Source of the DNA: Nitrospira sp. SB0662_bin_26
Lineage (GTDB): Bacteria; Nitrospirota; Nitrospiria; Nitrospirales; UBA8639
Assembly: GCA_009840285.1 (NCBI GenBank)
Contig: VXOF01000049.1
Coordinates: 1 to 60,423 of the forward strand
DNA length: 60,423 bases
Direction of reading: 5' to 3'
Numbering within the stretch: position 1 is the stretch's first letter; each line of letters starts with the position of its first letter. A program made the position numbers and the translations under genes. Of this stretch, positions 2,318 through 36,077 are shown piece after piece. Below the pieces are notes generated by a model that was not told the DNA's origin, searched no databases, and was given only the letters and a program-made list of their open reading frames with translations.

Positions 2318-3402
2318 GGCGACTGCAATGGAATCCGGCGTTCGTTGATGAACAGGTGAAAGTTTTTCACGTGGATCGTGATGGACTCTCCCGCGTGTTG
2401 CCGAAGACTGGATGAGGTTCGTGCCATCAGAGACTGTCCTTTGACCATCATATGCATGATGGAATCATGGCCGAGGTTTTCAATCAAGTCGATGGTTCCG
2501 GTGATCGCAACGTGTCCCGACCCCTGAGGTTCAAATGTTACGTCTTCGGGACGGACCCCCAAGGTCGCCATTCCATTGTCTGCGCCGATGAGTTCGTGAG
2601 CCTGAAACGGAAATCGCAACGTCAAGTCTCCTACGCGGAATTCGAGTTGCCGTTGGTCGAGGCTAAAAGAACCCTCGAACAAATTCATCGGAGGGTTGCC
2701 GATGAACCCGGCGACAAAGGGATTAGCGGGCTCATGATAAATCTGCTCGGGCCGTCCGATCTGCTGAATCCTGCCGTGATTCATAACGACAATGGTGTGC
2801 CCCAGCGTCATGGCTTCGGCTTGATCATGCGTCACGTAGACCATGGTGGTGCCCAGGCGCTGGTGCAATTTCTTCAATTCTACCCGCATCGATGCCCGGA
2901 GGCGGGCATCCAAGTTTGACAGTGGTTCGTCAAAAAGAAACAATTTGGGTTTCCGAACAATGGCCCGCCCCATGGCAACGCGTTGCTGTTGACCGCCCGA
3001 GAGTTCCCTGGGTTTCCGGTCAAGCAGGTCGTGAATTTCCAATAACGCAGCAGTTTCAGCGATACGTGCTTCGATCATGGGTTTGGGGTCCCGCCGCATT
3101 TTCAACCCGAAGGCCAAGTTTTCCCTGACCGTCAGGTGTGGGTAGAGGGCATAGTGTTGAAAGACCATGGCGACGTCGCGATCCGGAGGGGAAAGGTCGT
3201 CCACGCATTGTCCTCCAAAGAACACCGAGCCGCGGGTCTGCGGTTCAAGCCCGGCGATGATGCGCAGCAACGTGGATTTGCCGCATCCCGACGGACCCAG
3301 CAACACAATGAATTCGCCGTCGCCGACCTCGAACGACACGTCATGCAGAACCCGACTCCGACCGAACGTTTTCTCGATGTGTTGCAGTTCCAGTCCGGCC
3401 AT
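2314..3402 (-). CDS. Sugar ABC transporter ATP-binding protein (MalK/UgpC/SugC type)
   Basis: ATPase of a carbohydrate importer, 362 residues, the full MalK-type length. Visible motifs: Walker A GPSGCGKST (about 37-45), Q-loop in VFQHYALYPHLTV, signature LSGGQQQR (about 136), Walker B LFLFDEPLSNLDA and switch His in VTHDQAEA. The C-terminal third has the regulatory OB/TOBE fold of the family (LGVRPEDV at about 277). It lies between a permease gene (3 bases upstream) and an exported protein (4-base overlap), inside a tight five-gene operon. Confidence 0.93.
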   Translation of the reverse strand: MAGLELQHIEKTFGRSRVLHDVSFEVGDGEFIVLLGPSGCGKSTLLRIIAGLEPQTRGSVFFGGQCVDDLSPPDRDVAMVFQHYALYPHLTVRENLAFGLKMRRDPKPMIEARIAETAALLEIHDLLDRKPRELSGGQQQRVAMGRAIVRKPKLFLFDEPLSNLDARLRASMRVELKKLHQRLGTTMVYVTHDQAEAMTLGHTIVVMNHGRIQQIGRPEQIYHEPANPFVAGFIGNPPMNLFEGSFSLDQRQLEFRVGDLTLRFPFQAHELIGADNGMATLGVRPEDVTFEPQGSGHVAITGTIDLIENLGHDSIMHMMVKGQSLMARTSSSLRQHAGESITIHVKNFHLFINERRIPLQSP

Positions 3403-19816: not shown

Positions 19817-19832
19817 CGCAAAATGTGTGCCA
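19817..19832 (-). promoter_or_regulatory. Sigma-54 promoter of the zinc-ribbon/hsp20/cytochrome/cupredoxin operon
   Basis: On the minus strand the sequence is TGGCAC-ACATT-TTGCG, which matches the sigma-54 consensus TGGCAC-N5-TTGC at every defined position (GG-N10-GC spacing exact). The predicted start of transcription is near 19806, leaving a leader of about 65 bases before the ATG at 19741. Upstream, the dyads GGTTG-TTTG-CAACC (19877-19890) and GCAAAC-N15-GTTTGC (19860-19886) are candidate activator sites. Confidence 0.8.
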
Positions 19833-19972: not shown

Positions 19973-20848
19973 TTAACTCCCGGATGACCGGACGACCAGA
20001 ACGGGAGCAGTCGCCTGATGAACCAGGCTATGAGAGACGCTCCCGAGTAGAAACCCGGATAATCCGTGGCGGCCATGCGACCCAACCATGATCAGGTCCG
20101 GCTTGATTATTTTGGCCTGCTCGAGAATCGCAAACGCCGGATCGCCTAAGCCCACGATTGCCTGACTCGAAAAATGCTTGGCTTCAGCCTGTTGCGCGAC
20201 TTCTTCGGCCATGTCACGAGCGTGTGCCAATGCGCGCTCTTCCAATAATTTGCTTTGTGACAACGTCTCCGGCCAAGGCAACTGCGGTTGAGGCCATACC
20301 GACATGACACTAATGCGTGGCTTCGTCACAAAGGGAAGAGAAAACAAATAGTGAAGCAGGCATTCTGCATCTTCCTTTCCTTCGATTGGCATCAAAAGGT
20401 GTTGGAGTGCGGGAAAGGGATTTTTCACGGTGAGGGTGGAACATGGCGCATGTAAAAGGACCCTATGGGAAACACTGCCCAGGACCAGTTCTTTGATCGG
20501 TCCGAGGCCTCGGGCCCCCATCATGATGAGATCCGGTTTGACGGATTTGGCAGTATCTAAAATGACCATCGCCGGGAAGCCGATTTGATGAATCCGCTTT
20601 ACCTTCCCCACCCTCGTGGGGAGGCCGGAGAGGCATTGCTCCAACAACGCCTCACCTTTCGGCCTGAGGGTGTTTTCCATTTCCTGCATCGCGTTTTCCC
20701 TTATGTCCGGAGGGATCATGGGGTGATTAAGGTCCGGAAAATGGAGCGCGTGAACCAGAGCGAGTTCGTCAACCGGCCCGAAATGTGCAAGAGCTTGGAT
20801 AGAATAGAAGGACTGCGGTGATCCATCGATGGCTATGAGGATTTTCAT
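19973..20848 (-). CDS. Tandem universal stress protein (two UspA domains)
   Basis: A 291-residue cytosolic protein with two complete Usp domains. Domain 1 begins MKILIAIDGSPQSFYSIQ and ends with the ATP-site pattern MMGARGLGPIKELVLGSVSH (G-x2-G-x9-G-S). Domain 2 ends with VGSHGRHGLSGFLLGSVSH. Both phosphate-binding loops are intact, so nucleotide binding is likely. It has its own sigma-54 promoter at 20904-20919 and is divergent from the NtrC-type regulator, which probably activates it. Confidence 0.92.
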   Translation of the reverse strand: MKILIAIDGSPQSFYSIQALAHFGPVDELALVHALHFPDLNHPMIPPDIRENAMQEMENTLRPKGEALLEQCLSGLPTRVGKVKRIHQIGFPAMVILDTAKSVKPDLIMMGARGLGPIKELVLGSVSHRVLLHAPCSTLTVKNPFPALQHLLMPIEGKEDAECLLHYLFSLPFVTKPRISVMSVWPQPQLPWPETLSQSKLLEERALAHARDMAEEVAQQAEAKHFSSQAIVGLGDPAFAILEQAKIIKPDLIMVGSHGRHGLSGFLLGSVSHSLVHQATAPVLVVRSSGS

Positions 20849-20903: not shown

Positions 20904-20919
20904 AGCAAGAAAAATGCCA
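20904..20919 (-). promoter_or_regulatory. Sigma-54 promoter of the universal stress protein gene
   Basis: The minus strand reads TGGCAT-TTTTC-TTGCT: nine of ten defined consensus positions, with the obligatory GG and GC separated by exactly 10 bases. The expected start is about 20893, 45 bases before the ATG. The inverted repeat GCAAATTTC-N20-GAAATTTGC at 20982-21019 lies 63-115 bases upstream of the -24 element and is a candidate activator site shared with the divergent regulator gene. Confidence 0.75.
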
Positions 20920-21019: not shown

Positions 21020-21094
21020 AACAACTTTATTTTTGTGTTCCAAATATCCACATGTAGAGTAAAATGGCAGATTCACAAGAAATGTAGGTGGCAC

Positions 21095-22459
21095 ATGGCA
21101 GCACAGTCTATTCTGATTGTTGATGACGACAGGGAAATGCGAGATCTTCTCAAAGACGTCCTGGAGGATCACGGCTATTCTGTCGCCGTGGCGCGAGAGG
21201 GACGCGAAGCACTTGAACATCTGGAGCGTGACGAATTTCTGGTAGTGGTGGTGGATCTCAGGATGAAGGGAATGGATGGAGCCGAACTCTTGCACGAGCT
21301 TGTTCAACACCATCCCACCTGTAACGCCATCATGATGACGGCATTCGGTACGGTGGAGTCGGCCGTGGATGCGATGAAACGGGGGGCCTTCGATTATCTG
21401 ACGAAGCCCATCAAAACGGACGAACTATTGGTCACGATCGAGAAGGCCCTTCGTGAGGCGTCCCTTCGCCGGGAAGTAGAACATCTGCGGAAACAGGTCA
21501 ATCGTGAATACTCCTTCGATCAAATTTTCGGGAAGAGCAAACCCATGCGGGAAGTGTTTGATCTCATTCGCCGTGTGGCCGACTCCCAAGCGAATATTCT
21601 CATCACCGGCGAGAGCGGGACGGGGAAAGAGCTGGTGGCCAAGGCCATTCATTTCAACAGCAGCCGAAAGGAGGAGCCGTTTCTTCCGGTGAATTGTGCG
21701 GCGATCCCCGAACAGCTTTTGGAAAGTGAATTGTTCGGGCACGTGAAAGGGGCCTTTACGGACGCCAGGTCGGATAAACGCGGGTTGTTCGAAGAGGCTC
21801 AAAAGGGCACGTTGTTTTTGGATGAGATCAGCGAAATGCCGATGCTGCTGCAAGCGAAATTGTTGCGGTCCGTCCAGGAACGGGAAATTCGCCGGGTGGG
21901 CGCGACGCAATCCATTCCCGTGAACGTCCGGATCATTGCGTCCACGAATCTATTGTTGGCGGAGGAAGTGGAGGCCAAACGATTTCGGGAAGACTTGTAC
22001 TACCGTCTGAACGTCATAGAAATCCGGCTTCCTCCCTTGCGCGATCGCAAGGAAGACATTCCACTGCTGTGCAACATGTTGCTGCACAAGATGGCGAGAG
22101 GAACGGACAGGCAGCCGGCCGGCATCGCCGAATCGGCCCTCGGTTTGTTGATCGACTACCATTGGCCGGGCAACGTGCGGGAATTGGAAAACGTGATCGA
22201 ACGCGCTGTTACCCTGGCGTCTGGGGATATCGTGACCGTGGAGGCGTTACCCGCCACCATTCGCGAGGCGAAAGGAGAACGGCGACTGATCGAGGAGGGC
22301 AGTGAACGATCGCTTTCGATGGAAGAAGTCGAGGGCTTGTACATCAAAAGGATTCTGGAAAAGACTCGGGGCAACAAGCTGCAGGCGGCGCAGATCCTCG
22401 GCATCGACCGCAAGACCCTCTACCGGAAACTGGGAGGAATGGAGCAAGCAGCTTCCTGA
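21095..22459 (+). CDS. NtrC-family sigma-54-dependent response regulator (GAFTDA variant)
   Basis: A 454-residue activator. The ATG at 21095 is preceded by AGGTGG; an upstream in-frame start gives a poor extension. Receiver domain: LIVDDDREMRD acidic pocket, phospho-Asp in VVVDLRMKGMDG (about 53), Lys in DYLTKPI (about 103). AAA+ domain: Walker A GESGTGKE, the L1 loop GAFTDA (consensus GAFTGA), Walker B FLDEIS, arginine finger region EDLYYRLNVIEI. C-terminal Fis-type HTH: NKLQAAQILGIDRKTLYRKL. The kinase gene follows after 21 bases. It is the obvious activator for the three sigma-54 promoters nearby. Confidence 0.93.
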   Translation: MAAQSILIVDDDREMRDLLKDVLEDHGYSVAVAREGREALEHLERDEFLVVVVDLRMKGMDGAELLHELVQHHPTCNAIMMTAFGTVESAVDAMKRGAFDYLTKPIKTDELLVTIEKALREASLRREVEHLRKQVNREYSFDQIFGKSKPMREVFDLIRRVADSQANILITGESGTGKELVAKAIHFNSSRKEEPFLPVNCAAIPEQLLESELFGHVKGAFTDARSDKRGLFEEAQKGTLFLDEISEMPMLLQAKLLRSVQEREIRRVGATQSIPVNVRIIASTNLLLAEEVEAKRFREDLYYRLNVIEIRLPPLRDRKEDIPLLCNMLLHKMARGTDRQPAGIAESALGLLIDYHWPGNVRELENVIERAVTLASGDIVTVEALPATIREAKGERRLIEEGSERSLSMEEVEGLYIKRILEKTRGNKLQAAQILGIDRKTLYRKLGGMEQAAS

Positions 22460-22480: not shown

Positions 22481-23704
22481 ATGGCGCCTCACCCCTCCAA
22501 AGCTGAGTTGATAAAAGAGGTCGAGACTCTTCGACGCGAACTTGCCGAACTGCGAACTCATGAAACCCTGTCCCGGCGCACCTCAAAAGGGTTGCAAATC
22601 GTTGAACGCCAACTGGCCGGAATCATTCAGTCGACCATGGATGCCATCATCACCATTGACGATGAACAACGCGTGGTGCAGTTCAACGCCGCCGCGGAAA
22701 GCATGTTCGGTTGTTCAGCGAATGAGACCATGGGGAAACCGATCGATCGGTTTCTTCCCGAGCGGTTTCGCGCCAATCATCGTCAACACGTGAAGAATTT
22801 CGGTAAAACGCAGATCACCGACCGGCGCATGGGAGCCTTGGGGGCGGTATCGGGGCTGCGTGTCAATGGAGAAGAGTTTCCCATCGAAGCGTCCATTTCC
22901 CAATTCAAGAAAGGCAAACAACGGTTTTTTACCGTCATTCTTCGGGATATCACGGAACGGAAGGGATTGGAACGCCAACTTCGGCAGACGGAACGATTGG
23001 CTGAATTGGGCACGCTGGCCGCGGGTATGGCTCATGAAATCGGAACGCCCATGAACGTCATTCTCGGACGAGCCGAATATTTGATGCGAAAGACGTCGGA
23101 GGAATCGACCAAGAAAGAGTTGACCACCATTGTGGCGCAGGTCGAGCGCATCACGAAAATCATGAATCAATTGTTGAGTTTCGCCAGGCAAAGACCGATA
23201 GAACGACACCCGCTTGCCCTCTCGCTGGTGGTGCATGAAATCGTGGATGTCTTTCGAGAACGACTGGAGAAGCAACGAATCCGGCTGGAAGTGGACCTGG
23301 AGCCGCACTGTCCGACCGTCCCGGCCGACCGGGACCAGATGGGACAGGTCCTGTTGAATCTGATCGTCAATGCCATTCAGGCGATGTCCGGAGGAGGGAC
23401 TCTTTCCCTCACACTTCGTTGTCGCAACGATCACGTGCTCCTGTCGGTCTCCGATACCGGATGCGGGATCCCCGCTGACCACGTTCCGAAACTCTTCACC
23501 CCCTTTTTCTCCACCAAAGAAGTGGGGGAAGGGACAGGGTTGGGACTCACGGTCGTGCACGGCATTATCGAAGAGCATCAGGGGTCCATCACGGTGGACA
23601 GCGAACCAGGACGCGGAACCACGTTTCACATTCACCTGCCCGTACAGCAGGCGCTCGCAGAACCTTCACCACCCCGTGGGAGAGGGCAGGGTGAGGAGGC
23701 GTAG
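22481..23704 (+). CDS. PAS-domain histidine kinase, partner of the NtrC-type regulator
   Basis: A 407-residue cytosolic sensor kinase with no membrane segment. An N-terminal coiled coil (KAELIKEVETLRRELAELR) is followed by a PAS domain (about 45-165: GIIQSTMDAIITIDDEQRVV ... VILRDITERK). The HisKA box has the phospho-acceptor in GMAHEIGTPMNV, and the ATPase domain shows N-box LNLIVNAIQAMSG, DTGCGIP and GTGLGLTVV. The PAS shows no obvious heme or flavin residues, so the signal is unknown. The last 14 residues (SPPRGRGQGEEA and neighbours) are the translation of a palindromic intergenic repeat that has become the C-terminal tail. Confidence 0.92.
   Translation: MAPHPSKAELIKEVETLRRELAELRTHETLSRRTSKGLQIVERQLAGIIQSTMDAIITIDDEQRVVQFNAAAESMFGCSANETMGKPIDRFLPERFRANHRQHVKNFGKTQITDRRMGALGAVSGLRVNGEEFPIEASISQFKKGKQRFFTVILRDITERKGLERQLRQTERLAELGTLAAGMAHEIGTPMNVILGRAEYLMRKTSEESTKKELTTIVAQVERITKIMNQLLSFARQRPIERHPLALSLVVHEIVDVFRERLEKQRIRLEVDLEPHCPTVPADRDQMGQVLLNLIVNAIQAMSGGGTLSLTLRCRNDHVLLSVSDTGCGIPADHVPKLFTPFFSTKEVGEGTGLGLTVVHGIIEEHQGSITVDSEPGRGTTFHIHLPVQQALAEPSPPRGRGQGEEA
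23660..23700. repeat. Palindromic repeat read into the kinase C-terminus
   Basis: CTTCACCACCCCGTGGGAGA and the following GGGCAGGGTGAGG are a member of the CCCTCACCC...CTCTCCC repeat family also present at 30882-30916, 49138-49170, 51651-51710 and 53585-53628. Here the kinase reading frame runs through it and stops just beyond. Confidence 0.6.
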
Positions 23705-23878: not shown

Positions 23879-23895
23879 AGGCACCATCCTTGCAG
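23879..23895 (+). promoter_or_regulatory. Sigma-54 promoter of the giant multicopper oxidase
   Basis: AGGCAC-CATCC-TTGCA: nine of ten consensus positions, with -24 GG (23880-23881) and -12 GC (23892-23893) exactly 10 bases apart. The start is predicted near 23905, giving a leader of about 85 bases that ends with the strong ribosome site AGGAGG before the ATG at 23990. Confidence 0.78.
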
Positions 23896-23989: not shown

Positions 23990-26900
23990 ATGTGTTACAC
24001 GACACGGTCCATATTCATGGTCATGGTGGCCTTGGCGGCTTGGGGAGGAGCCATGCTGTTCGACATGAACGCTTCGGCCAACTCAGCTTCTCCCCATAAG
24101 GTGTCCATGTCTTCCCAGTCACCGGGATGGGCTGAGCGGCTCAAAGGCCAGACCATCATGGAAAACGCAGTGGAAGGACGCGCCGAGCGCGCGGCTCTGG
24201 TTGAGTTGCAACATCAGCGTTTGATGCAGCAGATGCAGAAAGACATGCAGCATAAGGGCGATGCATCAGGCGCCTTCAATACCATGTCGATGATGCACCA
24301 GTACGGGGCCGGGCCGGCCAACGGCTTGCTGGCCTCCAATTCCGACGTCGAGCCGGTTTCGATGAAGGGGGGATTGTGCCCCAAAACCGCGCCGGTGAGG
24401 CACTATGACGTCTCCGCCATCAACGTGGAGATCACCCTGAATCAATGGCTGGATTTCTATCCCGGCTATATGTACGCCCTGACCGAAGACATTCCCAGGA
24501 TCCGCGAAGAAGAAGCGAAGAACGCGGCGGCTCGGGAGAAAGAGGGCCATCATGACCCCGGTGGCGTGAAAAACGGGATCCAGGATCAATGGATTCAGCC
24601 CTTGGTGATTCGCGGCAACCAGGGCGATTGCGTGAAAATCACGCTGCGCAACGCGTTGGAATTCGGCGAGGAGGTCAGCCTGCACATCAACGGGTCCGAC
24701 ATGGTCATGAGCAAAACAGGGCAGCCGGCGACCACGACGAATCCCGATTCGGTGGCGGGCGGTCCTTCCGAAGATTGTGAAAAGGATTGCGTCGGAGAGG
24801 CCATCGGGATGGAATGGTACATTCATCCGGAGACCCAGGAGGGGGGACGGCAGTTCCATACGTACAGCAATGACCGGGAACTCACGGTCATGGGCCTGTT
24901 CGGGGTGTTCGTCGTCGAACCGCGCGGGTCGGAGTACTACGATCCGTTGGGAACGGGATCGGCCCCGAGGGATCGAAGCGGCTGGCAGACGATGATCAAG
25001 AACGGCACGGGTCCGGATTTCCGCGAGTTCGTGTTGATTTATCATGAAGTGGGTGATGAAGCGTTTCGTCCGGTGAACAAGCACGGCGACTTCCTGCCCC
25101 AACGCGACCCGCTGACGGATGCCTATCGACCGGGCGCGCGTGCCTTGAACTATCGCAGCGAACCGTTCGGCATCAACAACATGCACGTGCAACACGAATA
25201 TTTCGGGTTTGAAGATGAATCCATGGCGTACAGTTCCTATACGTTCGGGGATGCGGCGCCGACGATTCCGCGCAGTTATTTGGGGGATCCCGCGAAGTTC
25301 CGCGTCGTACATGGCGGATCGGAAGTGTTCCATTCTCATCATCCGCATGGCGGAGCCATTCGTTGGCAGCGCAGCCCCCGGGCCACGCAAATGCCCGTGT
25401 GGAGCACCGGTCAGAACGGGCCCGTGAAGTATCCGGTGGTTCGCACCAAATCCGATCGCGTGGACGTGGAAGTGATCGGACCCTCCGAAGCTCTGGATCT
25501 GGAAACGGAATGCGGCTCCGGGTTGTGTCAATGGCTGGCCGGGGATTTCCTGTTCCACTGCCACGTGGCCCATCACTACGTTGCGGGCATGTGGGGGTAT
25601 TGGAGAGTCTACAACACCTTGCAGGTTCCCGGTATCCAGAATGACGTGATGGCCCCGTTGCGGGAATTGCCGGACCGGGTCGGACGTATCAACAGGCCCG
25701 TGACGTCGGATCAGTTGGTCGGAACGACCGTGAACTGGTTCGGCAGTCAATTCAAGATCGTGGAAAGCGGCAAGACCGATTGGAAAGCCGAGCCTCCGGT
25801 GGTCACTCTGAAAGATTGGGTGTCCATGCAGCTCAGCAACCAGGGCAAACCGGGCCACAAGGACGACGAACTCGGTCAGCTCAAGGCCTATGACGCCACG
25901 GTGGTCGATTGGGTATGGAATAAAAATCGCGCGATGAGCGAAAAAGAGCCCTCCATCGGCGACAATCCGAAATATCAGCCCGAATGGCAAGGCTATGAAC
26001 CCGGAAAACGGCGCCCCATCTGGTTCGAGCCGGCCACCGGGAAAGTGGCGTGGCCTTGGTTGACGCCGCATTTCGGCAAACGCGCGCCGTTTTCCAACGA
26101 CCACAATCCGGCTCCGTGGCTGGAAATGATTCGACTCAACGACGACGGAACACGGTCGGTGGGACCGGCCGAGCCGGGAGAAAACGGGAACTGGAGCCTG
26201 TGTCCGGACCGGGCGGGTTCCCAGGATTACAACATTCATTTCATCAAGCTGCCCATTGAATTGTCCGCGGCACAGGGTAAGGAGCCGGCCATCGTCGACC
26301 CCAACGGGTTGCTCTACGTGGTCCACGAAGAAGAGGCGGACGTTCGAGCCGACAACGACAAGAAGTTTCCACTGGTCGTTCGAGCGAACGTGTATGATTG
26401 TATCGATTGGACGCTAACCAGCGAGTGGTTGGACGACGACTTCACCAATTTTCAATCCTCCAAGATCAATACGCATTTCCATTTTTTCCAGTTTGACAAT
26501 CAGGCCTCCGACGGCGTGATTTCGGGCATGTCGTACGAGCAGTCGATGCGGCCCTTTACGCAGTTTTCGAAAGACACCGAGAAAGGGTTGCCGGTGCCGA
26601 TGAACGCCAAAGTCGCCAAGGCGGCAAAGGCGGGAGATACAATCATTCACGTGACGAATGCCAGGCAGTATCACGTGGGCATTCCCATTTTGGTGGGAGC
26701 GGATAACGTGGAGGGGAAGGAAGTGCGTCGCATCGCCGCCATCGGGGACAAGACCCTCACGTTTGACGCGCCCCTGGAACACGCGCATCCGGCCGGGGAC
26801 ATCGTCACGGTGGAGTATGTGCGGCAACGGTTCTGGGTGGATGCGGACGTGGGCAGCGTCTTCTGGCACGACCACGCCTTTGGCGGCACGACATGGCCAC

Positions 26901-28879
26901 ACGGGGCCGTGGGCACGATGATTGCCGAGCCGTTCAACTCTACGTGGCACGATCCCAAAACGGGCGAACGGATCAGGACCGGCCCGGTGGCGGATATTCA
27001 TGCGACCGAACGGGTCGGCCATGACGTCGCCGGCAGTTTCCGTGAATTGATGGTGCACATCATGGACACCGTCCCGCATACGGTGAACGTGGTGACGGCC
27101 GGGAATCCTCCCGGGCAACCGGTGGAAGTCGCGCTGGAAGCGGGGCGGACGGTATCGTTCCAGATGCCGCCCAACGAGACCATCAAAATGACTCCCATGC
27201 CCTTCCTTAATGGAGGGACCCATACCACGGGAGGGGCGCTGAATTTCCGGGCCGAGCCGTTTGCCCAGCGTTTGGCAAACGATCCGGATCCTTCGAAGCT
27301 GTTCAGCAGTCGCGTGCACGGTGATCCGAGTACGGCGATGCTGCGCGCGTATCTGGGCGATGCCCTCGTGTTTCGGTTGCTGGACGTCACGATGAACGAA
27401 AGCAACGTGTTTACGATCTCCGGGCATACGTTCTGGTCGGAACGGTACGCGGAGGAAGCCAATCGAAAGAATGCCCTGCACGTCGGCATCGCCGAGCGGT
27501 ATGACCTGGTGATTGCCGAAGCCGGCGGACCTCGCCATAGACCGGGGGATTACATGTTCTTCAACGGGCGGAATTCCAAGTTCTCGGAAGGGGCGTGGGG
27601 GCTCATCAGAGTATTGGATGCCCCGGTTTCTGATCTTCAACCATTGCCCAACAAGGCGTATGGCAGAGAAGGCATACCTGAACCGCTGCCGGTGTGTCCG
27701 CCGGATGCCCCGGTCAAGCAATTTAACGTGGTGGCAATGGACCATCCGGGCATGAGCTTCAATTCCAATGCTCCGGAAGCCATTGAAGTCGACTTTGAGC
27801 GAAAGATCAAACTGCGCAATCCGGAAGCCAAAATTTACGTGCTCGAGGATGACGTCAAGAGGGTGTCCGGGGACGCGCAACCCATGCCGTTGACCCTGCG
27901 AGCTAACGTGGGCGACTGCCTCAAGGTTAAGCTCACGAATAAGCTCAAGGAGGGGCGGGCGTCGTTTTCAGCCTTCGGGTTGGCGTTCGATCCGAAGGAT
28001 TCCCAAGGAGTCAATCTCGGCAACAACCCCGGAGATCAAACCGTGGCTCCAGGGAAGTCCCGCACCTATACCTACTATGCCGATCCCTTTAACGGCGAGG
28101 GGCAGACGTTGGTGTGGGATTGGGGGAACGTGACCACCAATCCTCGAAACGGCTTGTTCGGCGGAGTCATTATCGGTCCCGAAGGCTCGACGTATCGTGA
28201 TCCCAAGACCGGGGAAGACATTTCCCTGAAAAATAGCTGGAGAGCGGACGTCATCGTGGATCGCACCATACCGGGGAATGAAGGCCGCGCAAACTATCGT
28301 GACGTGGCGCTGTATTTCCAGGATGAGGACAACATCATCGGCACCAGCTTCATGCCCTATGTACAAAACGTGGCGGGGTTGACGGGGGTGAACTACCGGG
28401 CGGAGCCGTACCTGTATCGTGAAGACGCAGGGTGCTCACTCGGTCGCATGTTCCAACCCTGTGAAGTCGAGAATCCGCAGGATCCCGTCACGCCGGTGAT
28501 TGAGGCGCATGCGGGAGATCCTGTCCGCATTCACGTCTTTGGTGCCAGCAGTGAACAGAACGGAATGTTTACGGTGGAAAAACATGAATGGCCCATTGAA
28601 CCCTTCCTCCCCGGAGCGGATATGATCAGCACGGTGGAGTTTGCCGGTTCGGAAGGCCTGGATGTGTTCCTGTCGTCGGCCGGGGGAAAATGGGCGCTGC
28701 CCGGGGATTATGTATGGAGCAACGGGCGGCTGCCTTATTCCCAATCAGGTCAATGGGGTTACCTCAGGGTGCTCTTCGCCGATGATCAGCGAATACTGCC
28801 ACTCGGAGTTGGTTCCCCCAGTCTGCGGCAAGTGGAGGTTGATCCGGGCTTTAAAGTTTCACCGGCGTCTTTGAAGTAA
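23990..28879 (+). CDS. Giant multicopper oxidase, three repeated cupredoxin-pair units
   Basis: A 1,629-residue secreted protein; signal peptide at about 1-30 (FMVMVALAAWGGAML). Three units begin with related strands: CPKTAPVRHYDV (130), CPDRAGSQDYNI (738) and CPPDAPVKQFNV (1236). Unit A keeps FHSHHPHGG (447-455) and the T1-type loop HCHVAHHYVAGM (523-534). Unit B keeps HFHFFQFD (829-836), WHDHAF (959-964) and WPHG (969-972). Unit C has lost nearly all histidines. At the place of HCH, units B and C read NGR...GxWG. The size and His pattern recall MnxG/MofA manganese oxidases and Geobacter OmpB-type proteins, so extracytoplasmic metal oxidation is plausible but unproven. It is sigma-54 driven, with its own terminator. 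Confidence 0.85.
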   Translation: MCYTTRSIFMVMVALAAWGGAMLFDMNASANSASPHKVSMSSQSPGWAERLKGQTIMENAVEGRAERAALVELQHQRLMQQMQKDMQHKGDASGAFNTMSMMHQYGAGPANGLLASNSDVEPVSMKGGLCPKTAPVRHYDVSAINVEITLNQWLDFYPGYMYALTEDIPRIREEEAKNAAAREKEGHHDPGGVKNGIQDQWIQPLVIRGNQGDCVKITLRNALEFGEEVSLHINGSDMVMSKTGQPATTTNPDSVAGGPSEDCEKDCVGEAIGMEWYIHPETQEGGRQFHTYSNDRELTVMGLFGVFVVEPRGSEYYDPLGTGSAPRDRSGWQTMIKNGTGPDFREFVLIYHEVGDEAFRPVNKHGDFLPQRDPLTDAYRPGARALNYRSEPFGINNMHVQHEYFGFEDESMAYSSYTFGDAAPTIPRSYLGDPAKFRVVHGGSEVFHSHHPHGGAIRWQRSPRATQMPVWSTGQNGPVKYPVVRTKSDRVDVEVIGPSEALDLETECGSGLCQWLAGDFLFHCHVAHHYVAGMWGYWRVYNTLQVPGIQNDVMAPLRELPDRVGRINRPVTSDQLVGTTVNWFGSQFKIVESGKTDWKAEPPVVTLKDWVSMQLSNQGKPGHKDDELGQLKAYDATVVDWVWNKNRAMSEKEPSIGDNPKYQPEWQGYEPGKRRPIWFEPATGKVAWPWLTPHFGKRAPFSNDHNPAPWLEMIRLNDDGTRSVGPAEPGENGNWSLCPDRAGSQDYNIHFIKLPIELSAAQGKEPAIVDPNGLLYVVHEEEADVRADNDKKFPLVVRANVYDCIDWTLTSEWLDDDFTNFQSSKINTHFHFFQFDNQASDGVISGMSYEQSMRPFTQFSKDTEKGLPVPMNAKVAKAAKAGDTIIHVTNARQYHVGIPILVGADNVEGKEVRRIAAIGDKTLTFDAPLEHAHPAGDIVTVEYVRQRFWVDADVGSVFWHDHAFGGTTWPHGAVGTMIAEPFNSTWHDPKTGERIRTGPVADIHATERVGHDVAGSFRELMVHIMDTVPHTVNVVTAGNPPGQPVEVALEAGRTVSFQMPPNETIKMTPMPFLNGGTHTTGGALNFRAEPFAQRLANDPDPSKLFSSRVHGDPSTAMLRAYLGDALVFRLLDVTMNESNVFTISGHTFWSERYAEEANRKNALHVGIAERYDLVIAEAGGPRHRPGDYMFFNGRNSKFSEGAWGLIRVLDAPVSDLQPLPNKAYGREGIPEPLPVCPPDAPVKQFNVVAMDHPGMSFNSNAPEAIEVDFERKIKLRNPEAKIYVLEDDVKRVSGDAQPMPLTLRANVGDCLKVKLTNKLKEGRASFSAFGLAFDPKDSQGVNLGNNPGDQTVAPGKSRTYTYYADPFNGEGQTLVWDWGNVTTNPRNGLFGGVIIGPEGSTYRDPKTGEDISLKNSWRADVIVDRTIPGNEGRANYRDVALYFQDEDNIIGTSFMPYVQNVAGLTGVNYRAEPYLYREDAGCSLGRMFQPCEVENPQDPVTPVIEAHAGDPVRIHVFGASSEQNGMFTVEKHEWPIEPFLPGADMISTVEFAGSEGLDVFLSSAGGKWALPGDYVWSNGRLPYSQSGQWGYLRVLFADDQRILPLGVGSPSLRQVEVDPGFKVSPASLK

Positions 28880-31883: not shown

Positions 31884-32223
31884 TGGTTCAGGCCCGAGCA
31901 ACCTTGGCTTCGGCTACTGATTCCTGAACGACCTGAAAGGCAAGTTGGTTGCCCTCTCGCGGGCGTGGGGGGCTTCGGTCTTGGTGGTAGCGTGAGCGAA
32001 CGGGTGCAGCATCAGCGGATTGGGTCAAGACATCGGCTCACAAATCCTTCTCCTCGGCGAGCCCTGACCGCGGGTCTGCGGGGGGCAGCGGACAGAATTT
32101 CAAACTGAGCCACTACCTCCTTGACCGGGTATTTCCCTAAAGATAGAATAGCCGTCATCAAGGGGGTCCTTGTCAGGGATAGTCTTTTCTTCTGCCCGGA
32201 TTCGGCCCCGAGAAGTGACAATT

Positions 32224-34119
32224 ATGAGGATCGACTATAATAAAGGCGGGCTGATCAGCCCGCAGCTTCTGAAGCAGCGCCGTACGGAATCCCAGTCTGA
32301 CGGCGGACCTAAGAAGAAGGTCATGCTGCTCTTCCCTCCGGATTGGTATCCCTCCGAGCCCTACCTGAGTCTTCCGACGTTGACCGCGTTCTTGCGCCGC
32401 GCCGGGCATGACGTGGTGCAGAAGGATGTCAACCTCGAAATGTACGATTGGTATTTCAGCGCGGACTTTCTCAAGCGCGTGCTGAAACGAGTACCCCAGC
32501 AACTGGATCGTTTGAAGAGACTGGCCAGGGACCGGGGGCTTACGGAAGAAGAAACCCAGTTGCAGATGGCCTTGTGCGAATCCACGCGGTCTCGCGTGGC
32601 GGACCTGATCGAACAGGCCGAGCGCGCCAAGGCGATCATCCGATCCCCGGAGTTCTACGAGGCGGAAAAACTCGAATGGGCCATGAACGTGTTTCGGGAG
32701 GTGACCGCGACGATTTCCCTGGTGTACGCGCCCGCGCGTATTTGTATGCCGCCGATGGAAACGGACCTGTCATATAAACTCTTCATGTCGTCGGAGGTCC
32801 TGGCCGCGGTCGAGGATACGCAGGTCAACGTCTATCGCGACGTGTTCGAGCATATCGTCAAGCCGGCTATTCTCGAAGAAAAGCCGGAGATCATCGGCAT
32901 CTCCATCGTCTTGCGGCAGCAACTGTTTTCCACCATGACCTTCTGTGCCATGATCAAGGAGCAGTTCCCCGAGATCCACGTGACCATTGGCGGCAATACC
33001 GTGACCCGGTTGCGCGACGTGCTGCCCGCGACGCCCAACCTGTTCGCGCTGTTCGACACCGCGGTGGTGTACGAAGGCGAGACGGCGTTTCTTCAATTGG
33101 TGGAAGCGGTTGGGACGAATCGGGACTTCAATGAGATTCCGAACCTCCTGTGGCGGGACGATGCGGGCATTCATACGTCGCCGGTCACGTCTTCCGAAAA
33201 CATGGCGGACCTGCCGCCCCCGGATTTCGACGGGCTCCCGATGGACCGCTACTTCGTGCCGGAACCCGTGCTCCCCTATCTTGCCACGCGGGGGTGCTAT
33301 TGGGGCCGGTGCGAGTTCTGTGATCACGGCGAAGGGTATACGGCCGGCTACCGGACCAAGAAGATCCAGGAAATCATCGAGGAGGTCCGGTTCCTCCGCG
33401 ACAAGTATCACACGCGGCATTTTCACTTTACCGACGAATCCTATCCCCCGGCGCTCTTCCGCAAACTGACCCGTCAGCTCAAGGAACACCAATTGGGCAT
33501 TGCGTGGACCACACACATCCGTTTCGAGAAGAGCCTGTTGGACGACGAGGTATGGCAGGATGCCGAGGATTCAGGGTGCAAGTTCCTCCACATGGGTTAT
33601 GAATCCGGCAGCGAGCGGGTCCTGAAACTCATGGACAAGGCCACGACCACCGAGGTGATTCAACGGAGCCTGGAACTGTCTTCGAAACATGGTGTGTGGA
33701 ATCACGTGATGGGATTCTTCGGGTTTCCGGGCGAACGGTATGAAGACGCGAAGTTTTCCATGGATTTCCTGGAGGATAACAAGGAGCACGTGCATTCCAT
33801 CGGCTTCGGCACGTTCGATCTCAGCAAACATACCCCGGTGGCCAAGGACCCGGAGCGATGGGGCATTACGTTCTACAAAAATCCCGAATGGGACCTGGCC
33901 CTGGATTATTACTTTACCGTGAAGGAAGGGCTGGGCGTCGAGGACGCCGAACGGGTGTTTGAGGAGTTCGAGCAGAACCATTATGCCGGCTGGGATTTGA
34001 AGATCTACATCCGCGAATACGTCTTCCTCTACGTGGCGCATTTTGGAACCAACAAGCTACCGGCCCTGCAATTTCGCATCACGCCGGATGAGAGTTCCGA
34101 AGAATTGGCGAACGTCTGA
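32224..34119 (+). CDS. B12-binding radical SAM enzyme, paralogue 1 (C-x4-C-x2-C)
   Basis: A 631-residue cytosolic enzyme. Residues about 30-85 (KKKVMLLFPPDWYPSEPYLS ... GHDVVQKDVNLEMYDW) and 235-300 form a cobalamin-binding Rossmann-like domain without the DxHxxG ligand, as is usual for this class. A long helical insert lies between them. The radical SAM core starts at TRGCYWGRCEFCDHG (about 357), where the cluster cysteines are spaced C-x4-C-x2-C, not the canonical C-x3-C-x2-C. SAM-site elements follow (HFTDESYPPALF, MGYESGSERVLKLMDK, GFFGFPGE). Its stop overlaps the start of the paralogue (TGATG). Reaction unknown; methylation or C-C chemistry is typical. Confidence 0.88.
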   Translation: MRIDYNKGGLISPQLLKQRRTESQSDGGPKKKVMLLFPPDWYPSEPYLSLPTLTAFLRRAGHDVVQKDVNLEMYDWYFSADFLKRVLKRVPQQLDRLKRLARDRGLTEEETQLQMALCESTRSRVADLIEQAERAKAIIRSPEFYEAEKLEWAMNVFREVTATISLVYAPARICMPPMETDLSYKLFMSSEVLAAVEDTQVNVYRDVFEHIVKPAILEEKPEIIGISIVLRQQLFSTMTFCAMIKEQFPEIHVTIGGNTVTRLRDVLPATPNLFALFDTAVVYEGETAFLQLVEAVGTNRDFNEIPNLLWRDDAGIHTSPVTSSENMADLPPPDFDGLPMDRYFVPEPVLPYLATRGCYWGRCEFCDHGEGYTAGYRTKKIQEIIEEVRFLRDKYHTRHFHFTDESYPPALFRKLTRQLKEHQLGIAWTTHIRFEKSLLDDEVWQDAEDSGCKFLHMGYESGSERVLKLMDKATTTEVIQRSLELSSKHGVWNHVMGFFGFPGERYEDAKFSMDFLEDNKEHVHSIGFGTFDLSKHTPVAKDPERWGITFYKNPEWDLALDYYFTVKEGLGVEDAERVFEEFEQNHYAGWDLKIYIREYVFLYVAHFGTNKLPALQFRITPDESSEELANV

Positions 34120-36077
34120 TGTCTTCCCTCATCCACATCGATAACGCGGCGCCGAAAGCCAAGAGCGGCCGGAAGTTGAAAACCATGCTGCTCTTCCCGC
34201 CGGAATGGGTGCCCACGGCTCCGTACCTGGCGTTGCCGAGTCTCACGGCCGTGCTCCGGGACAACGGGCATGAGGTCGTGCAGCGGGACATCAACATCGA
34301 AATGTACGAGTTGTTCTTCAGCGACATGTTCCTGATCTGGGTCAATGCGCGAATGGTCCAACAACTGAAGGCGCTCGAAGCCAAGGGCGCGGGGTTGAGT
34401 GACAAGGAGATCGACCAGAAAGCCTGTCTGGAGGAGGCCCTGGCCTTCGACGTGATGGAATTGGCCGCGAACGCCGAGGAAGCGAAACGCATCAACCGGA
34501 GCGACGATTTCTACGAAGCCGATAAACTCGAATGGGCGTTGAACGTGTTTCGTGACGTCATGCGGTACATCTCCGCGGCGTATTTCCCCGCCTCGCTGGT
34601 GTATTACCCCATGGAGAGCAATCTGGGGTACCGGCCCGGCGTCTCAAAGGAAGTCCTTGAGTGTTTGGACGACGAGCAGGTGAACGTGTATCGGGACGTG
34701 TGCCGGCAGTTGGTGCTGTCCTCGGTCGCCAAGGAACGCCCGGACGTGGTCGGCGTCTCCATCGGGACGAAGATGCAAATGATCGCGGGCTTCACCTTCT
34801 GCAAAATGATCAAGGAAGCGTTCCCGGATATCCACGTCACGGTCGGGGGGAACGTGATCACGCGGCTTCAGGAAGACCTGGCGAAACAGGAGCCGTTTTT
34901 CTCGTCCGTGTTCGATTCGGCCATCATGTATGAGGGCGAACATGCCCTGTTGTGGTTATTGGAAGCCCTGGTAGGGGATCGAACGTGGCAATCGTTGCCG
35001 AACCTGATGTACCGGGAACACGGGCACGTCCGGATCAATTCGGAAATTTACACGGAAAAGACCACGGCGCTCCCGTTGCCCGATTTTCAAGGGTTGCCCC
35101 TGGATTCCTATTTCGTGCCTACGCGCATCCTTCCGTATTTGGCGACCCGGGGCTGTTACTGGGGGCGGTGCACGTTCTGCGATCACGGGCAAGGGTACTT
35201 CGACCAGTATCGCGGCAAGCCGGCCCAGGACGTGGTCCGGGAAGTCAAGGCCCTCAAGGACATCTATCAGGCCGATCACTTTCTCTTTGCCGATGAATCG
35301 TATCCGCCCGCGCTCTTCAAAAAGGTGTCCCAACTCCTGGTGGAAGAACAGGTGGGCATCAAATGGACCACGTTGATCCGTTTTGAGGAGACGCTCCAGG
35401 ATCCTGAAACTTGGCGACTGGCTGCGGAGTCCGGCTGCAAGACCCTGTACTACGGGATGGAGTCGGCCAATGAGCGCGTATTGGAACTTATGGACAAGCA
35501 CGCGCGGAAGAGCGTGATCGAAAACAATTTACGGGAAGCCGCGAAGGCGGGGATTTGGAATCACGTCATGGCGTTTTACGGGTTCCCGGGCGAGACCAGG
35601 GAAGAAGCCGAGGAGACGAGGCAATTCCTGCTCGACAACAGCACCGACATCCATTCGGTGGAGTTGTTTTACTTCGTGGCCTATCGCCATACGCCGATGG
35701 TCAGGAATCCCGACAAATTCGGCATCACGATTCAGAAGCAGGACGAATATGACATGCCCCTGGATTACTATTACACGCTGAACGAACCGGGGACTCTGAA
35801 TTGCCTGGATGCCATGCAGTTGTGCGAGGAGTTTTATCAGAACGATTTTGAACCCTGGGCCGTGCGGATCAACGCCCGTGAGCAGATCTTCCTCTACATT
35901 TCACGGTTCGGCACGAACCGGTTACCGCAAATCTATGCCACCCGGCATAGTCCTGCCGACGCCGCGCCCGATACCGTGGCGGGGTTGATCACGTGGCCGG
36001 TGGCCAAGGTGGACCCCGAAGGCGGCAAAGAGGGGGAACCGGGCATGACGCGGGTGGTCAGCCATTCGACCACGTAG
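34119..36077 (+). CDS. B12-binding radical SAM enzyme, paralogue 2 (C-x4-C-x2-C)
   Basis: A 652-residue paralogue of the preceding enzyme, collinear over its whole length: KTMLLFPPEWVPTAPYLALP at the N-terminus, EADKLEWALNVFRDV in the insert, TRGCYWGRCTFCDHGQGYF with the same C-x4-C-x2-C spacing, DESYPPALFKK, YGMESANERVLELMDK and FYGFPGE. A short C-terminal extension of about 35 residues is unique. Overlap by one base with the first gene implies coupled synthesis, possibly a heterodimer or two consecutive steps on a related substrate. The substrate is unknown. Confidence 0.88.
   Translation: MSSLIHIDNAAPKAKSGRKLKTMLLFPPEWVPTAPYLALPSLTAVLRDNGHEVVQRDINIEMYELFFSDMFLIWVNARMVQQLKALEAKGAGLSDKEIDQKACLEEALAFDVMELAANAEEAKRINRSDDFYEADKLEWALNVFRDVMRYISAAYFPASLVYYPMESNLGYRPGVSKEVLECLDDEQVNVYRDVCRQLVLSSVAKERPDVVGVSIGTKMQMIAGFTFCKMIKEAFPDIHVTVGGNVITRLQEDLAKQEPFFSSVFDSAIMYEGEHALLWLLEALVGDRTWQSLPNLMYREHGHVRINSEIYTEKTTALPLPDFQGLPLDSYFVPTRILPYLATRGCYWGRCTFCDHGQGYFDQYRGKPAQDVVREVKALKDIYQADHFLFADESYPPALFKKVSQLLVEEQVGIKWTTLIRFEETLQDPETWRLAAESGCKTLYYGMESANERVLELMDKHARKSVIENNLREAAKAGIWNHVMAFYGFPGETREEAEETRQFLLDNSTDIHSVELFYFVAYRHTPMVRNPDKFGITIQKQDEYDMPLDYYYTLNEPGTLNCLDAMQLCEEFYQNDFEPWAVRINAREQIFLYISRFGTNRLPQIYATRHSPADAAPDTVAGLITWPVAKVDPEGGKEGEPGMTRVVSHSTT

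Follow-up and report, generated by a model that had tools for sequence, protein, structure and literature searches.

A six-domain multicopper oxidase of the MnxG kind in Nitrospira sp. SB0662_bin_26, with one predicted copper centre and a conserved sigma-54-type promoter motif

Described six-domain oxidases and the architecture of the Nitrospira protein

In bacterial six-domain multicopper oxidases (MCOs), domain 2 alone carries a T1 copper and the trinuclear site lies where domains 2 and 3 meet (2013; PMC3600357), whereas ceruloplasmin has a T1 copper in each even-numbered domain (2, 4 and 6) and its trinuclear site where domains 1 and 6 meet; the same source describes the ligands that MCOs use for a T1 copper and a trinuclear cluster (PMC3600357). 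Large secreted MCOs include OmpB and MofA (PMC5566968), and an MnxG-like MCO is common to Nitrospina and Ca. N. defluvii, with a Mn(III)-based ROS defence proposed (PMC3578206).

The oxidase gene analysed here lies in a stretch of 60,423 nucleotides (the window; contig VXOF01000049.1 of assembly GCA_009840285.1), and the features of the locus are collected in Table 1. A Sec-like signal peptide was recognized by eye at the N-terminus of the product. Three internal units had been described in the initial annotation as starting with CP at residues 130, 738 and 1236, and C130-P, C738-P and C1236-P were found exactly there, each followed further downstream by a second invariant cysteine (C214, C804 and C1310, respectively). 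Profile-profile comparison (hhalign) confirmed that the units are homologous (A-B 98.3%, E 1.5e-14; A-C 99.5%, E 1.4e-22; B-C 99.7%, E 3.8e-26). At the level of single domains, domains 1, 3 and 5 matched one another, as did domains 2, 4 and 6 (the weakest pair being 2 and 6, at 75.7%), and odd domains gave no hhalign match to even ones; each unit is thus a two-domain cupredoxin pair, giving six domains in total. Three homologous units of this kind are one of the features by which bacterial six-domain MCOs are recognized (Vasin 2013). A misassembled or fused ORF was ruled out by full-length orthologues of 1600-1700 aa in dozens of genomes.

Table 1. Features of the oxidase locus (window positions)
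Feature	Position	Strand	Basis or remark
Response regulator of the NtrC type (sigma-54 activating), likely regulator	21035..22459	+	homologue near MCO in many relatives
PAS histidine kinase, probably paired with the response regulator	22481..23704	+	gene neighbourhood
Sigma-54 type -24/-12 promoter-like site, AGGCAC-CATCC-TTGCA	23879..23894	+	~96 bp 5' of ATG
Six-domain multicopper oxidase gene	23990..28879	+	ATG ORF, 1629 aa product, secreted
Unit A, residues 130-737	24377..26200	+	domains 1 and 2, linker extension ~561-737
Domain 2 HxxHxH motif: H448 (T1), H451 and H453 (trinuclear)	25331..25348	+	aligned family members
Domain 2 HCHVAHHYVAGM: H523, H525 (trinuclear); C524, H529, M534 (T1)	25556..25591	+	aligned family members
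Unit B, residues 738-1235	26201..27694	+	domain 3 (with insert) and domain 4 without copper ligands
Domain 3 HxH: H829, H831 (trinuclear)	26474..26482	+	aligned family members
Domain 3 HDH: H960, H962 (trinuclear)	26867..26875	+	aligned family members
Unit C, residues 1236-1629	27695..28876	+	domains 5 and 6, both without copper ligands

The closest solved relative by sequence was MnxG of Bacillus sp. PL-12 (PDB 9bxa, Mnx complex; E 3.7e-76, or 2.5e-141 with a profile), which shares the six cupredoxin domains and three units and is colinear along the whole chain. A comparison with MnxG had been proposed in the initial annotation, and each half of the protein found its best structural match in MnxG, where T1 loops are missing at the same places. 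The AlphaFold model of units A and B (residues 118-1236, mean pLDDT 60) superimposed on MnxG 1-804 with Z 21.8 (rmsd 4.7, 653 residues; next-best structure Z 14.5), and that of units B and C (residues 735-1629, mean pLDDT 67) on MnxG 440-1216 with Z 22.3 (rmsd 3.6, 659 residues; next-best structure Z 19.0). These models, built from shallow alignments (41 rows, 64-88% identity), suit fold matching and are too poor for copper geometry; model residues 326-425, spanning much of domain 2 with the HxxHxH and HCH stretches, have pLDDT below 50, so the copper-site geometry discussed below rests on sequence and homology. Compared with MnxG (identity 24-28%), the Nitrospira protein is ~400 aa longer, with an N-terminal extension, a domain 2-3 linker longer by ~115 aa, and an insert of ~88 aa in domain 3 between HFH and HDH.

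Copper ligands

A complete set of 12 ligands for one T1 copper and one trinuclear cluster is present in the 1629-aa oxidase. The T1 ligands H448, C524, H529 and M534 fall in domain 2 only, and the eight predicted trinuclear histidines are split between domain 2 (H451, H453, H523, H525) and domain 3 (H829, H831, H960, H962). With H448/C524/H529/M534 and the eight histidines, the protein has every ligand known in MCOs for a single T1 copper and its trinuclear cluster. The H448xxH451xH453 motif of unit A is a further ligand motif that the initial annotation had not listed. As that annotation had noted, only unit A keeps the T1-type loop HCHxxxHxxxxM (H523-C-H525-VAH-H529-YVAG-M534-WGY); the equivalent place, with its NGR...GxWG framework, reads GDYMFFNGRNSKFSEGAWG in unit B (~1186-1204) and GDYVWSNGRLPYSQSGQWG in unit C (~1572-1590). 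Its proposal that the unit B motifs HFHF (829-832) and WHDH (959-962) complete a trinuclear centre together with unit A agrees with the alignment, in which H829, H831, H960 and H962 would join the domain 2 histidines. Complete copper sites made from other residues were not seen in units B and C, as domains 4, 5 and 6 are ligand-free in the alignment: GDYxxxNGR...GxWG or a similar sequence stands in for the T1 loop in domains 4 and 6, which have no HCH loop, and domain 5 carries no ligands. Domains 1, 4, 5 and 6 thus hold no copper ligand set, the same as in MnxG, where the HCHxxxHxxxxM loop is likewise in domain 2, HxH and HDH are in domain 3, and domain 4 has a ligand-free GDYLW...GTWG. The 9bxa structure is that of the MnxG H340A mutant, and H529 aligns to the mutated T1-loop position (position counted by hand).

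The histidine and cysteine ligands were invariant in 27 of 27 diverse Nitrospiria homologues, and M534 was kept in every row of the domain-ligand alignment. A single HCHxxxHxxxxM loop was present in all 26 homologues in a list of divergent or partial sequences reaching down to ~25% identity, some of them plasmid-borne (Priestia, Halalkalicoccus, Streptomyces and Alphaproteobacteria).

Family distribution, promoter motif and gene neighbourhood

The oxidase family was present in 58 of the 60 Nitrospirales genomes searched (relatives up to order level), and a scan of genome contigs gave matches almost all from Nitrospirota, with no named MofA or OmpB among them; a phylum-wide search found homologues in the sampled class members, with distant matches only elsewhere in the phylum. 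Among the named relatives, identity was 64% for Ca. Nitrospira defluvii and 94-96% for Nitrospira MAGs. An 85% identical copy on an Opitutales MAG contig (JAJFLV010000092) probably represents a misbinned Nitrospirales contig. The genome itself encodes another copy, in a longer reading frame, on a separate contig (C37, 3721-8952 of locus L036; 79-81% identity), in which ~70 extra residues follow the residue-918 position and FCHDH replaces FWHDH in domain 3. Oxidase copies formed several well-supported groups in the tree, their deep order being unsure owing to long branches. Some genomes of Nitrospira relatives contain at least three six-domain oxidase copies, and adjoining copies were seen at three loci (L030, 4618-9546 and 10387-15267; also L027 and L028). 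Directly 3' of some oxidase copies lies a CarboxypepD_reg/fn3-like domain protein (L030 15388-17130; L097 10891-11925), and a Tll0287-like protein is also found downstream of the oxidase copy in L030; both are possible partners. On a Priestia megaterium plasmid (L121), two small ORFs (695-1339) directly 5' of the MnxG-like gene resemble an mnxE/mnxF arrangement.

Regulation is the new element of this locus: a conserved sigma-54-type promoter motif, often with an NtrC-type activator gene close by. Across the whole window, sigma-54-like sites are about as frequent as chance predicts when up to two mismatches are allowed, so that the lone site 5' of the oxidase gene proves little. Among relatives, with one mismatch at most allowed to TGGCAYN5TTGCW, 42 of 120 upstream regions had a site, where chance would give 1.8 and the reverse strand gave 0; within the close orthologue clade (at least 82% identity) this held for 33 of 35 loci. 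These counts draw on partly duplicated regions from related genomes and are not independent. The upstream region of the own-genome paralogue on C37 had no such site at this threshold. NtrC-type regulator genes lay near the MCO in 38 loci, partly as a different subtype (43-49% identity). Judging from motif and gene order, transcription of the oxidase is most likely driven by sigma-54 via the adjacent NtrC-type two-component system. Two further sigma-54-like sites lie on the minus strand beside the same two-component system (20904-20919 and 19817-19832, with 0 and 1 mismatch, respectively), one just 5' of a universal stress protein gene (19973-20848) and one 5' of a small ORF near an Hsp20 gene; they possibly mark a sigma-54 stress regulon. 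Elsewhere in the window (32170-36077), two adjacent long ORFs are similar in length and sequence, the first matching a radical SAM protein with a B12-binding domain.

Proposed activity and comparison with known systems

The protein is most probably a functional, secreted or periplasmic six-domain MCO of the MnxG kind, with a single centre and sigma-54/NtrC-driven expression, acting most likely on a low-valent metal ion. By homology, its three two-domain units would close into a pseudo-threefold ring with catalytic copper at one interface only, between domain 2 of unit A and domain 3 of unit B. The T1 copper in domain 2 would take single electrons from the reduced substrate, most likely Mn(II), Fe(II) or Cu(I); the electrons would cross the HCH bridge to the trinuclear cluster, to which domain 3 also contributes, and reduce O2 to water there, and domains 1, 4, 5 and 6 would close and stabilise the ring.

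The loss of the T1 loop from units B and C had been read in the initial annotation as asymmetric decay, suggesting that labour is divided within the molecule or that dead oxidase domains form a scaffold. Some loss did occur: domain 1 retains leftover histidines (H232 and H290), and class-level relatives (L129-L134, HIH...HSH) and a distant homologue (L024) keep a full HxH...HSH pair there, which would equal half of a D6-D1 site; an HxxH remnant is found in domain 4 of paralogues of 50-54% identity. These remnants fit the published loss model. A second active site at domains 6/1 was rejected, with neither HCH nor HxxHxH in domain 6 of any member read. The same layout recurs, however, in every homologue read, including Bacillus MnxG and sequences of 25-32% identity, and is published (PMC3600357); units A and B moreover would jointly build one MCO centre and do not count as two separate oxidases, dead or otherwise. 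The wide conservation of the single-centre layout contradicts lineage-specific decay, which we regard as very improbable, and the loop-loss pattern was already known, since MnxG lacks the same loops and the six-domain layout had been described. The idea of a new asymmetric enzyme is accordingly withdrawn, one active centre per six domains being the standard plan.

Within the preferred reading, that of a single-centre oxidase of the MnxG kind, the choice of substrate is divided. Mn(II) is a possible substrate, and a true Mn(II) oxidase like MnxG, yielding Mn(III)/Mn(IV) and perhaps protecting against ROS, can be put forward tentatively: MnxG is the best solved relative, the proposed Mn(III)-based defence concerns an MnxG-like MCO of Nitrospina conserved in Ca. 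N. defluvii (PMC3578206), and the gene lies close to universal stress and small heat-shock genes. Against it stand the low identity to MnxG given above, a score of 124 bits where the NCBIfam MnxG equivalog (NF041487) has its cut-off at 3100, and the failure to match MnxE/MnxF-like genes in the own genome, in a weak search with short putative MnxE/F queries (two Priestia ORFs) and no positive control. A ferroxidase or cuprous oxidase handling iron or copper in the periplasm, or an oxidase like OmpB/MofA at the outer surface and tied to extracellular electron transfer, can equally be put forward tentatively. In its favour, OmpB and MofA too are MCOs of large size that are secreted (PMC5566968), and genes for a c-type cytochrome and a cupredoxin lie 5-6 kb upstream; yet no gene of mofB (PPIase), mofC (cytochrome c) or SCO1/SenC type directly adjoins the oxidase gene, the cytochrome c lying 5 kb away beyond the two-component system. 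That a core, multi-paralogue Nitrospiria oxidase, with one paralogue under conserved sigma-54/NtrC control, performs metal- or stress-linked oxidation in nitrifier physiology is a speculative extension that we consider rather unlikely.

Among the known systems, human ceruloplasmin shares the six cupredoxin domains (fold match Z 13.9 and 19.0), but the Nitrospira protein, with its T1 ligands in domain 2 only and the predicted trinuclear site at domains 2/3, departs from the ceruloplasmin/hephaestin layout. The Pseudomonadota-type MnxG (NF041487, 1894 positions) has the same single-centre plan and gives a weak profile match along the chain, but differs in forming a separate tree branch that holds L122, a sequence scoring 1409 bits. 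With the MnxG-like MCO of Nitrospina and Nitrospira (PMC3578206) the likeness holds at the level of the family, which includes Ca. Nitrospira defluvii (FP929003), and not of the paralogue, as there are several paralogues per genome. Almost every Nitrospiria genome carries the family, frequently in at least two copies, and one clade has the conserved sigma-54-type promoter; promoter and spread together offer a handle, through the inducing signal and the substrate, on the old suggestion of an MnxG-like enzyme in Nitrospira-type nitrifiers.
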